A stretch of DNA of 64,000 nt from Affinundibacterium baiyunense. Lineage in GTDB: Bacteria > Pseudomonadota > Gammaproteobacteria > Burkholderiales > Burkholderiaceae_D. Below the pieces are notes generated by a model. The model worked only from the letters and a program-made list of their open reading frames with translations. It was not told the DNA's origin and did not search any database. Where the stretch lies: contig NZ_JAGSPM010000001.1 in the NCBI RefSeq assembly GCF_018139645.1, forward strand, positions 434,001-498,000. Reading direction: 5' to 3'. The translations under genes and the position numbers were made by a program. Below, one piece after another: positions 60,929 through 64,000 of the stretch (its first letter is position 1; every line of letters starts with the position of its first letter).

Positions 60929-61957
60929 ATGACGTTTCAAATAACTATTTCACCAAGCGGTCGTCAATTTCAATGCGACGACGATGAAACCGTATTAACT
61001 GCCGCCTTACGAGCGGGGCTCATTTTGCCATACGGCTGTAAAAACGGGGCATGTGGATCATGCAAAGGTAAAGTCAGCGCTGGTCAAGTTGTCCACGGCA
61101 ACCATCAACAAAAAGCCTTGAGCGATGAAGAAGAAGCACAAGGTGGCGCACTATTCTGCTGCGCCAAACCGCAAACTGACCTTACTATCGAAGCACGTGA
61201 AATGTTAGCGGATGACGACTACCCAATCAAAAAACTCCCAAGCCGCATCGCTAAATTAGAAAAGTTATCGGATGACGTGATGCTGATTGAATTGCAATTG
61301 CCCGCTGCAGAGAAATTCAATTATCGTGCGGGGCAATATATCGAATTTCTCTTAAAAGATGGCAAACGCCGTAGTTATAGTCTCGCCAATGCGCCGCATG
61401 TTGAAGGTCCACTAAGTCTGCACCTACGCCACATGCCAGGCGGCTACTTCACCGATCAAGTTTTTTCTACGCTCAAAGAACGCGACATCATGCGCTTTGA
61501 AGGTCCGCAAGGTAGTTTCTATCTGCGAGAGGATTCCGATAAGCCGATGATTTTGCTGGCATCCGGCACTGGGTTTGCACCGATCAAAGCCATCGTTGAG
61601 CAGTTAATTCATATCGACTCGAAGCGCGCTGTTCATTTGTACTGGGGAGGTCGTCGACCACAAGATCTGTATATGCACGCGCTATGTGAAGAATGGGCGA
61701 ACACATTGGAAGGCTTCCAATACACGCCTGTCGTGTCTGATGCGAATGCCGAAGATGATTGGCAAGGTCGCACAGGATTCGTACATCAAGCAGTGTTGGA
61801 TGACTATGCCAATTTATCGAGCTATCAAGTCTATGCCTGCGGCGCTCCTATCGTGATCGAGTCAGCAAAACGGGATTTTGTTGCGAAATCACATTTGCCT
61901 GCGGACGAGTTTTATGCGGACTCATTCACATCGGAAGCAGATTTAGCAAAAAACTAA
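60929..61957 (+). CDS. 2Fe-2S ferredoxin/FAD/NAD reductase (CDP-6-deoxy-delta-3,4-glucoseen reductase-like)
   Basis: A three-domain electron-transfer reductase, 342 residues. The N-terminal plant-type 2Fe-2S ferredoxin has CKNGACGSCKGKV and a later Cys in LFCCAKP. The FAD domain has RRSYSLANAP, and the NAD domain has ASGTGFAPIKAIVEQL and the C-terminal YACGAPIVIESAKRDF. It resembles AscD and phenol/toluene monooxygenase reductases; in Burkholderiales a stand-alone copy is commonly annotated as glucoseen reductase, with no sugar cluster nearby here, so the true partner is open. I chose ATG 60929, preceded by CAGGA. A longer frame to 60842 overlaps the divergent gene. Confidence 0.9.
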   Translation: MTFQITISPSGRQFQCDDDETVLTAALRAGLILPYGCKNGACGSCKGKVSAGQVVHGNHQQKALSDEEEAQGGALFCCAKPQTDLTIEAREMLADDDYPIKKLPSRIAKLEKLSDDVMLIELQLPAAEKFNYRAGQYIEFLLKDGKRRSYSLANAPHVEGPLSLHLRHMPGGYFTDQVFSTLKERDIMRFEGPQGSFYLREDSDKPMILLASGTGFAPIKAIVEQLIHIDSKRAVHLYWGGRRPQDLYMHALCEEWANTLEGFQYTPVVSDANAEDDWQGRTGFVHQAVLDDYANLSSYQVYACGAPIVIESAKRDFVAKSHLPADEFYADSFTSEADLAKN

Positions 61958-62050
61958 TTTATTTAAAACGATGAAATTATTTTTCATTTTTTTTGATTTA
62001 TTTCAGGTTTGCATCGTACAAAACCGCAAAAAAACCGTTACACTACGCAA

Positions 62051-62134
62051 ATGAAAAATTTTACCGACATGTCTTCTCCAAATATCGCTCGACGTCGCCG
62101 TTCGGACACCGAGCCTGGGAAGTCTTGCGCGTAA
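62051..62134 (+). CDS. putative arginine-rich leader peptide of argD-argF
   Basis: A 27-residue ORF, too short for normal gene calling, with the core NIARRRRSD: four successive arginine codons CGA CGT CGC CGT at codons 14-17 (62090-62101). It ends at TAA (62132-62134), 18 bases before an intrinsic terminator and about 200 bases before the argD ATG. There is no Shine-Dalgarno sequence before the first ATG. A -10-like TACACT at 62039-62044 would place the RNA start at the ATG, so the message may be leaderless; an internal ATG at codon 7 is an alternative start. Clustered codons for the pathway's end product are the hallmark of attenuator peptides. Inference, not shown. Confidence 0.6.
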   Translation: MKNFTDMSSPNIARRRRSDTEPGKSCA

Positions 62135-62187
62135 GAAAAGCAAGATCACGATAAAACCACAGGCTCAAACCCTGTGGTTTTTTTTTG
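62087..62187 (+). promoter_or_regulatory. putative ribosome-mediated transcription attenuator of argD-argF
   Basis: Four RNA segments can pair in exclusive ways. Segment 1 (GCTCG, 62087-62091, inside the Arg codons) pairs with segment 2 (CGAGC, 62110-62114). Segment 2 (GAGCCTG, 62111-62117, plus GG) pairs with segment 3 (CAGGCTC, 62160-62166, plus CC with one bulge). Segment 3 (AAAACCACAGG, 62153-62163) pairs with segment 4 (62171-62181) to form the terminator. A ribosome stalled at the Arg codons would cover 1, leave 2 free to hold 3, and let transcription run on into argD. A ribosome at the stop codon would cover part of 2 and allow termination. Confidence 0.6.
62153..62187 (+). terminator. 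intrinsic terminator upstream of argD
   Basis: A perfect 11-bp stem AAAACCACAGG/CCTGTGGTTTT with a 7-base loop, followed by a total T-run of nine to ten bases. It lies 150 bases before argD, not after a normal gene, which is the position of an attenuator. Confidence 0.92.
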
Positions 62188-62336
62188 CGTGCTTGTGGAT
62201 GTGATGGTGGATCTGCTGACGTATGCTGAGACTGGTCGTTCTGCGGTAACATCTTTCGCTTATTCTGTTTTTGTATTTAATTTTATATTTAATTTCGGAT
62301 TTTTAGTCTTTGCTTTCTTCTTTGAGGAGTTTTGAA

Positions 62337-63554
62337 ATGGAATTTAGTCAGTACAACGTCAATGCCCTGATGTACATCACACCACGTCCTGAGTTGGTGT
62401 TTACGGAAGGCCGAGGCATGTGGCTGACTGACCATAATGGCAAACGCTACCTTGATTACTTGCAAGGCTGGGCGGTTAATTGCTTAGGGCACTCTCCTCA
62501 ATGCATCACCGATGCGGTGGTCGCTCAAGCGGGAAAATTGCTCAATCCTTCACCTGCTTTTTATAACGAAAACATGGTCAAGTTGGCGGATCAACTAACC
62601 CAACATTCTTGTTTTGATCGCGTCTTCTTTGCCAATAGCGGTGCCGAAGCAAATGAAGGTGCGATTAAATTAGCGCGTAAATGGGGACAAAAAAATAAAA
62701 ACGGCGCTTTTGAAATTATCACTTTCGATCACGGCTTCCATGGCCGTACTTTGGCTACCATGTCTGCTTCAGGCAAACCGGGTTGGGATACGATCTTTGC
62801 ACCGCAAGTCACCGGCTTTCCCAAAGCCGATTTAAACGATATCGCCTCAGTTGAAAAACTCATCAACGACAAAACCGTGGCAGTCATGTTAGAGCCTGTG
62901 CAAGGCGAAGGCGGCGTGATTCCAGCGAGTCGCGAATTCATGCAAGCTCTGCGTGCGCTGACCAAGCAACATAATATTTTATTGGTCGTCGACGAAGTGC
63001 AAACAGGCATGGGACGTACAGGCGAATTATTTGGCTACCAACTCTCAGGTATAGAGCCAGACATCATGACCTTGGGTAAAGGCATAGGCGGCGGCGTGCC
63101 ACTCGCAGCCTTATTAGCGAAAGAAGAAGTTTCCTGCTTCGTACCTGGCGACCAAGGTGGCACTTATAACGGAGCACCATTGATGACGGCGGTCGGTTTG
63201 GCTGTTATCAAGGCCTTGACCGCACCAGGCTTCTTAGATGAAGTGAAAGCAAAATCCGCGTATTTGAGCAAAGCACTTAATACGCTATCTGAGCAATTCG
63301 GCATGGAAGGCGAACGTGGTGAAGGCTTATTGCGCGCACTTAAACTCGGCAGCGATATCGGCCCACGTTTGGTCGAAGTCGCACGCGATCTGGAGCCGAT
63401 TGGTTTACTCATCAATTCTCCACGCCCTAACCTACTCCGCTTCATGCCCGCGCTGAATGTCAGCTACGAAGAAATCGACACCATGATTTCTATGTTGAGC
63501 AAAGTCATCCAACAGGTGATAGACGAAAAAGCCGCAGCATCGACAGCATCTTAA
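62337..63554 (+). CDS. argD: acetylornithine aminotransferase
   Basis: PLP-dependent transaminase of arginine synthesis: N-acetylglutamate semialdehyde to N-acetylornithine. Seen: [21 protein letters not shown] near residue 100, [13 protein letters not shown] near 135, [17 protein letters not shown] near 220 and the PLP lysine Lys248 in [10 protein letters not shown] chose the ATG at 62337 with GAGGAGT as ribosome-binding site; the frame is open to a TTG at 62310. Length 405 is typical. Some ArgD proteins also act as succinyldiaminopimelate transaminase. argF follows after 25 bases. Confidence 0.96.
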
Positions 63555-63579
63555 ATCGAACATATCCGAACAAATTAAC

Positions 63580-64000
63580 ATGGCTATCAAACATTATTTA
63601 CAGGTCTCTGACCTGACGCTAGATGAATACGACTATCTGATGCAGAGAGCACGGATCATCAAAGATCGCTTTAAGAAATACGAACCCTACCACCCGCTTT
63701 TGGATAGAACACTGGTGATGGTATTTGAAAAAAATTCCACTCGGACGCGCTTGAGTTTTGAAGCGGGTATGCATCAGTTGGGTGGCGCGGCAATTTATTT
63801 GAATACACGCGATAGCCAATTGGGTCGTGGCGAGCCAGTCGAGGATGCAGGTCAAGTCATGTCTCGCATGTGCGACATCATCATGATCCGCACTTTTGAG
63901 CAAGAGATGATAGAAAAATTTGCCGCCAATTCACGCGTGCCTGTCATCAATGGTTTGACCAATCAACACCATCCTTGCCAAGTGTTCGCGGATGTGTTTA
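63580..64000 (+). CDS. argF: ornithine carbamoyltransferase, 5' part
   Basis: Makes citrulline from ornithine and carbamoyl phosphate in arginine synthesis. The gene runs off the window end, so only about 140 residues are present. The carbamoyl-phosphate motif STRTRLSFE is near residue 51, followed by GGAAIYLNTRDSQLGRGEPVEDAGQVMSRMCDIIMIRTF and NGLTNQHHPCQVFADVF with the HPCQ site. It begins 25 bases after argD stops and is probably in the same transcript, so both would be under the same upstream attenuator. Confidence 0.96.
   Translation, partial: MAIKHYLQVSDLTLDEYDYLMQRARIIKDRFKKYEPYHPLLDRTLVMVFEKNSTRTRLSFEAGMHQLGGAAIYLNTRDSQLGRGEPVEDAGQVMSRMCDIIMIRTFEQEMIEKFAANSRVPVINGLTNQHHPCQVFADVF

Follow-up and report, generated by a model that had tools for sequence, protein, structure and literature searches.

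A putative arginine-sensing leader-peptide attenuator upstream of argD-argF-argG in Oxalobacteraceae

Introduction

How might a bacterium that lacks the arginine repressor sense when to make arginine? In the Proteobacteria, arginine biosynthesis has been described mainly through ArgR; the histidine, tryptophan, leucine, threonine, isoleucine-valine and phenylalanine pathways supply the textbook attenuators, and the general mechanism of ribosome-mediated attenuators of the his, trp and leu type is established in this phylum. PMC5343134 describes ArgR as strongly conserved in many groups of Gammaproteobacteria and absent from other classes, a pattern that raises the question of how such bacteria sense arginine. 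Control at the RNA level is described in parts of PMC1262725 as T-boxes for the arginine genes of other species, and as attenuators for histidine, threonine and phenylalanine.

The question arises in a stretch of 64,000 nucleotides from Affinundibacterium baiyunense (contig NZ_JAGSPM010000001.1, positions 434,001 to 498,000), here called the window, in which an original prediction had placed an arginine-codon leader peptide and a four-segment attenuator ahead of argD and argF. Following up that prediction, we conclude that the element is very probably a transcription attenuator worked by the ribosome, through which the level of charged tRNA-Arg governs argD-argF-argG.

Results

Anatomy of the leader

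The short reading frame of the original prediction is present with its 27 codons, four consecutive arginine codons occupying positions 14–17 (Table 1); among the 56 window ORFs of at least 150 codons, RRRR does not occur, RRR occurs once, and CGA accounts for 10% of arginine codons. The genes that follow are in the order argD-argF-argG, with profile matches for argF falling below their cut-offs because only part of the protein lies inside the window. Upstream, a reductase-like gene read in the same direction ends with a stop at 61957, 196 nt before the terminator hairpin.

Table 1. Features of the leader and of the genes that follow it (window coordinates)
Feature	Position	Strand	Details
-10-like hexamer TACACT	62039..62044	+	6 nt upstream of leader ATG; would imply a start at or beside the ATG (putatively leaderless)
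Leader peptide ORF	62051..62134	+	ATG at 62051, 27 codons plus TAA (62132-62134); encodes MKNFTDMSSPNIARRRRSDTEPGKSCA
Segment 1	62087..62091	+	pairs with 62110-62114, 5/5 bases
Four regulatory Arg codons	62090..62101	+	CGA CGT CGC CGT, leader codons 14-17 (RRRR)
Segment 2	62110..62128	+	5' arms of antiterminator: 62111-62119 and inner 62122-62128
Antiterminator inner 3' arm	62140..62146	+	pairs with 62122-62128
Intrinsic terminator	62153..62186	+	11-bp stem 62153-62163/62171-62181; T-run 62178-62186 (nine T)
Segment 3 (CCACAGGCTC)	62157..62166	+	antiterminator 3' arm; part of terminator 5' arm
argD Shine-Dalgarno GAGGAG	62324-62329	+	upstream of argD start
argD, acetylornithine transaminase	62337..63554	+	NF002985, 746.9 bits against a cut-off of 568
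argF, ornithine carbamoyltransferase	63580..64000	+	runs off the window
argG	just beyond window, 62 nt after argF	+	locus L265; named from sequence and gene order

Checked base by base, the terminator has all 11 pairs and nine T, and the three mutually exclusive pairings proposed for the leader hold throughout: 5/5 for segments 1 and 2, 7/7 for 62111-62117 with 62160-62166, and 11/11 for the terminator stem. The second of these had been drawn too small: the antiterminator comprises an outer stem of 9 bp, joining 62111-62119 to 62157-62158 and 62160-62166, and an inner stem of 7 bp. When segment 1 is masked, as the original prediction had suggested, the antiterminator forms: the RNA that a ribosome on the Arg codons would leave free (62107-62168) folds into it at -21.3 kcal/mol (z -4.55), a value equalled by none of 200 shuffles. 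The whole leader fold beats 200/200 shuffles (z -3.50) and the terminator stretch alone, 62147-62189, reaches -15.1 (z -4.00); the region 62051-62166, in which the 1:2 fold can form but the terminator cannot, is ordinary (z -0.64, with 55/200 shuffles equally good). On the complete RNA, with the ribosome placed at 12 positions on the window, the terminator fold is best in 9 and the antiterminator in 3 (for example -24.6 vs -21.3). Because the terminator fold mostly wins once the RNA is complete, the order of synthesis must decide the fold, as it does in the textbook attenuators.

A terminator-like match is in itself nothing unusual here, a simple scan finding one where 2.1 are expected in shuffles; the significance of the terminator therefore comes from its conservation. 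Rfam contains no family at gathering score within 61000-64000, where there are weak chance matches only, and none up to E = 10 within 62051-62186; the nearest weak match, to snR50, ends at 62045.

Conservation at argD loci

ArgD matches occur in 195/195 sampled genomes of the window's GTDB family, and only part of them are orthologues (≥71% identity). The conservation sample consists of 101 argD upstream regions from 100 genomes (G046 contributing two), all from orthologues that reach the start codon; six fragmentary loci (G066 twice, G087, G105 twice and G189) were set aside, as were genomes whose ArgD is no more than about 40% identical. The window ArgD is 98% identical to those of Undibacterium macrobrachii and U. 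fentianense, which places the window in Undibacterium or close beside it. A search that asked for no particular sequence found an intrinsic terminator, placed as in the window after the leader ORF and ahead of argD, at 88/101 of these loci, and CCACAGG is present in all 88.

An in-frame Arg run precedes the terminator in 87/88 leaders (RR in 12, RRR in 70, RRRR in 5). It opens with CGA in 86/87, its second and third codons vary mostly synonymously, and it begins at codon 9 in 68 leaders and at codon 14 in 12. The leader ORF was assigned by a rule requiring TTGAC, RR and CCACAGG in 81 cases and by hand in seven, and the start chosen for L032 and five leaders of genus g27 rests on a second TTGAC. 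The expectation that relatives would share a short ORF with clustered Arg codons is thus borne out, with its terminator, at 87/101 argD loci. Relatives lacking the Arg run or the terminator, which the original prediction had named as grounds for rejecting it, do exist as a minority, namely 13 loci and L076.

The 13 loci without the element fall in g5 (8), g13 (4) and g15 (L029); the same search finds no terminator in them, and none has a match to the leader model above 6.3 bits. Their argD genes are orthologous, and the missing leaders are either apparent losses or mark lineages that never had one. At L076 (genome G038, genus g38), promoter, segment 2 and terminator are kept and a single Arg replaces the run (MNIQTKFNRGSTSLVQSGKPCA); the locus keeps the frame of the attenuator device despite the lost run, and we read it as a decayed or retuned switch. 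Separately, genomes of g6, g12, g19 and g40 have a best listed ArgD match whose E-value is close to those of the 40%-identical paralogues; they apparently carry a different acetylornithine transaminase, and they give no strong match to the leader model.

Reading frame and transcript start

The spacing of the leader is constrained in frame up to the Arg codons and not beyond them. In 81 relatives having both a promoter-placed ATG and CGACG (the window's subclade, L076 with its lack of CGACG, and loci lacking a clear -35 stand outside this set), the distance between the two, measured without any frame criterion, is 24, 27, 30, 39 or 63 nt and divisible by 3 in 81/81, values that represent few independent length changes among related sequences. 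CGACG and CCACAGG are 64 nt apart in 50/81 and 58-83 nt apart in the rest, in all three frames. Two leaders stop early, L048 at codon 16 and L085 at codon 15, with all or most segment-2 bases kept. Together the spacing pattern and these early stops indicate that the reading frame is what counts as far as the Arg codons, and the RNA itself beyond them, which is the pattern that attenuation requires.

Promoter spacing suggests that the leader mRNA is probably leaderless. A TA...T hexamer ends 6-8 nt upstream of the ATG in 88/88 leaders (gaps of 2-8 searched), and TTGAC[GT] lies 35-37 nt upstream in 82/88 (33-40 searched); the six without it are the window, its three nearest subclade members (L003, L004 and L009), L102, and L033, for which the sequence retrieved does not reach far enough. 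In the window subclade the -10 (TACACT) is in place and no -35 is recognisable, and a sigma-70 scan of the window found no promoter. An SD-like match of 4 or more occurs before 2/88 leaders as against 28/88 argD starts. By standard promoter numbering the implied 5' UTR is 0-2 nt, which would put the first base of the transcript at the ATG or no more than about two bases from it. A further block, GCAGTGCGCAAAAC, overlaps the -35/-10 spacer in relatives and lies 9 bp further upstream in L003 and L009; at 62009-62044 of the window the block itself is altered and the -35 unrecognisable. The block may be more than core promoter.

Compatibility of the stems

The original prediction had proposed looking for covarying stems. 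Over 44 gap-free sequences the two competing stems are indeed 92% paired (1:2, 91.8%; 2:3, 91.9%), against at most 73.4% (1:2) and 46.1% (2:3) when the partner is slid; two-sided changes, however, are nearly absent, with 2 cells each for 1:2 and 2:3, not above what shuffles often give. Among six close Undibacterium sequences the 2:3 stem is 95.8% paired with zero two-sided changes. For the terminator stem, whose arms helped to delimit the leaders, pairing across 70 sequences reaches 98.4%, and its 4 two-sided cells all fall at one pair. With columns nearly invariant, a column-pair scan and pair counts for covariation add little, and RNAalifold on all 44 sequences gives weak consensus folds. 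Because two-sided changes are nearly absent, the structure rests on compatibility and folding, not on classical covariation.

Predicted effect of ribosome position on the fold

In 87 leaders a ribosome was placed on one codon after another and the RNA exposed beyond it was folded, segment 3 counting as sequestered when at least 5/8 of its bases were taken up. When Arg codon one, two or three occupies the A site, the fraction of leaders with segment 3 sequestered is 0.82, 0.91 and 0.90; from nine codons past the first Arg it is ≤0.06. The predicted effect of position is a broad peak: before the run, sequestering is 0.59 at nine codons (17 leaders), 0.26-0.40 at eight to four, and 0.61-0.82 at three to one; after the run starts, it is 0.66-0.90 at three to seven codons and 0.17 at eight. 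Without a ribosome, segment 3 is free in 80/87 leaders.

Both switch conditions, segment 3 sequestered with the ribosome on the Arg codons and free with no ribosome, hold in 73/87 leaders, compared with 14.1±3.2 (maximum 21) in 30 sets in which the stretch between Arg run and terminator was shuffled, a comparison in which kinship is not respected; switching leaders number at least one in 17/20 genera represented. A stricter test of 2:3 energy is passed by 23/87 leaders at p ≤ 0.05 (60 shuffles each), the signal being strong in the window's genus (-9.2 vs -3.2 kcal/mol) and no better than chance in g23 and g24. When folding begins downstream of the Arg codons and omits the terminator 3' arm, the outer 2:3 stem forms in 23/23 distinct Undibacterium-type leaders (these come from 33 loci, the rest being identical or outside the script's rule). 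An antiterminator that excludes the terminator is thus favoured, in silico, with the ribosome on the control codons.

Distribution of the leader

A covariance model was built from 70 of 81 distinct leaders, of which the 44 with one spacing make up the gap-free alignment. It matches 188/392 family genomes at E ≤ 0.01, with plain terminators at the weak end; full-length matches of at least 39.9 bits, counted by hand, occur in 147 genomes and 21/44 genera, many of these genomes lying outside the training set, whose own members match by construction. The next-best family match (G235, 36.4 bits), between rpsI and argC with genes named by eye, looks like the rpsI terminator. The window's own genome has one match, at argD.

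Across 274 genomes of the class, six match at E ≤ 1e-4, the window's own included; inspection by eye shows no Arg leader in G510, G439 or G572, and in G485 and G642 the match is confined to the 3' part of the model. As an observation apart, three loci outside the family (L260, L261 and L256, from G439 and G510) give weak model matches of 25-32 bits and have TTGAC 35-38 nt ahead of the ATG of a short Trp/Arg ORF (..SLWRLL.., ..VLWHR.., ..IMWRH..), followed by a terminator, with an EamA/DMT-type transporter gene, named by eye, next at L260 and L261. They may be another leaderless leader family.

In named genomes a degenerate pattern finds at least 120 loci, 58 of the 120 listed having argD directly downstream. 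Those listed with argD behind include Undibacterium, Herbaspirillum, Herminiimonas, Collimonas, Glaciimonas, Noviherbaspirillum, Oxalicibacterium, Keguizhuia and a Duganella MAG, together with records named only Oxalobacteraceae, Burkholderiales or Proteobacteria. The other 62 listed loci, with no argD behind, were dropped as chance, L200 (Undibacterium umbellatum) excepted: the only one of those 62 listed with the promoter-ATG arrangement, it is a genuine leader, truncated where its locus ends.

ArgR in the family

ArgR repression, which the original prediction took as the usual control of arg genes and as a ground for doubt, does not appear to be the rule here: ArgR (PF01316) passes its cut-off in 0/97 family genomes, with two sub-threshold matches, neither in the window's own genome. 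In a control set, 9/14 genomes match, E. coli and B. subtilis among them, 8 over the cut-off. Given this result, the doubt speaks in favour of attenuation.

Discussion

The anatomy of the leader, its conservation and the predicted response of its fold to the ribosome all support the arginine-starvation reading of the original prediction, and from them we infer start, stalling, read-through and signal as follows. Transcription would begin at the leader ATG or within about two bases of it, so that the peptide would be translated from a leaderless mRNA end. With arginine ample, the ribosome would pass the Arg codons and reach the stop, covering segment 2; segment 3 would then pair with segment 4 and transcription would terminate near 62186. 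With translation absent, segment 1 would pair with 2 and the terminator would again form. When arginyl-tRNA is short, the ribosome would stall at codons 14–17 and cover segment 1, leaving segment 2 to capture segment 3 and RNA polymerase to continue into argD.

Other explanations fit parts of this evidence. SpeFL, TnaC and the fungal AAP are arrest peptides that bind a ligand, and the leader might likewise bind free arginine or ornithine in the exit tunnel instead of gauging tRNA-Arg charging. An Arg-rich leader does precede an arginine pathway, and the Salmonella speF leader is under arginine-linked control (PMC6386406); but the peptide is poorly conserved between genera outside the Arg run (MKNFTDMSSPNIARRRRS.., MNTTAKLLRRRAPLP.., MIANATFLRRRSQPEKGLLLRA), and an arrest brought on by surplus arginine would release segment 2 and switch the biosynthetic operon on, the wrong sign, which makes such a peptide very unlikely. 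We regard it as highly improbable that the element is a ligand riboswitch or protein-binding leader with an incidental ORF: the bases of the RNA core hardly vary across the family, as such a device would have them, but no Rfam family reaches gathering score around the leader, the frame from ATG to Arg codons is kept in 81/81 with arginine preserved through synonymous changes, and the predicted fold responds to where the ribosome stands. That the hairpin is a mere terminator of the reductase-like gene, with a constitutive argD promoter further down, is scarcely credible, for although it follows that gene in the same direction and a simple scan finds as many terminators in shuffles, a TTGAC promoter-like element stands before the ATG in 82/88 relatives, an Arg-run ORF precedes the hairpin in 87/88, and the stem that segment 2 forms instead exceeds what chance would give.

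Read as a ribosome-mediated attenuator, the element resembles those of the his, trp and leu type in having an ORF with a run of end-product codons before a biosynthetic operon (as set out in parts of PMC2965389 and PMC1262725), in its 1:2, 2:3 and 3:4 pairings and in its intrinsic terminator; it differs in that the amino acid sensed is arginine. Nearer parallels each share one trait. The trpL leader (rnTrpL) of Sinorhizobium meliloti also starts with its leader ATG, in an operon stated to be free of transcription repression (passages of PMC7298713), but it senses tryptophan, belongs to the Alphaproteobacteria and has a known 5' end, whereas the start of the arg leader is inferred from promoter spacing. 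In orf34 of Salmonella speF, consecutive Arg codons, two in number, sense low arginine and alter RNA folding; there, however, the gene is an ornithine decarboxylase, not a biosynthetic arg operon, and control runs through Rho-dependent termination and RNase G (PMC6386406). Upstream of cysS in Rhodobacterales, uORFC-8-2 likewise has tandem codons for a single amino acid, and ribosome-mediated attenuation was proposed for it from comparative genomics; its codons are for cysteine, its gene encodes a tRNA synthetase and its hosts are Alphaproteobacteria (passages of PMC8632094).

The suspicion that the leader might be undescribed stands. The literature we searched on arginine attenuation, with most subscription journals outside its scope, yielded no leader-peptide attenuator for arginine biosynthesis; the words 'arginine', 'argD' and 'argF' are absent from the main text of the premature-terminator survey PMC2965389, and a term search of the Herbaspirillum seropedicae papers PMC7011215 and PMC3093359 met no passage on an arg leader. 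Having found none described, we take the arg leader as a previously undescribed example of the his/trp-type class with two unusual traits: arginine sensed by the leader of a biosynthetic operon and, probably, a leaderless start.

A wider reading, to which we give slightly less than even credence, is that a leaderless arginine attenuator replaced ArgR as end-product control of argD-argF-argG in about 21 genera of the family, and that its terminated leader RNA of ~135 nt and its Arg-rich peptide might also act in trans, for which rnTrpL and peTrpL of Sinorhizobium, which do so, offer a model. The attenuator itself offers a specific answer to how Oxalobacteraceae sense arginine, and its many natural variants form a large set in which attenuation from a probably leaderless mRNA end may be studied.
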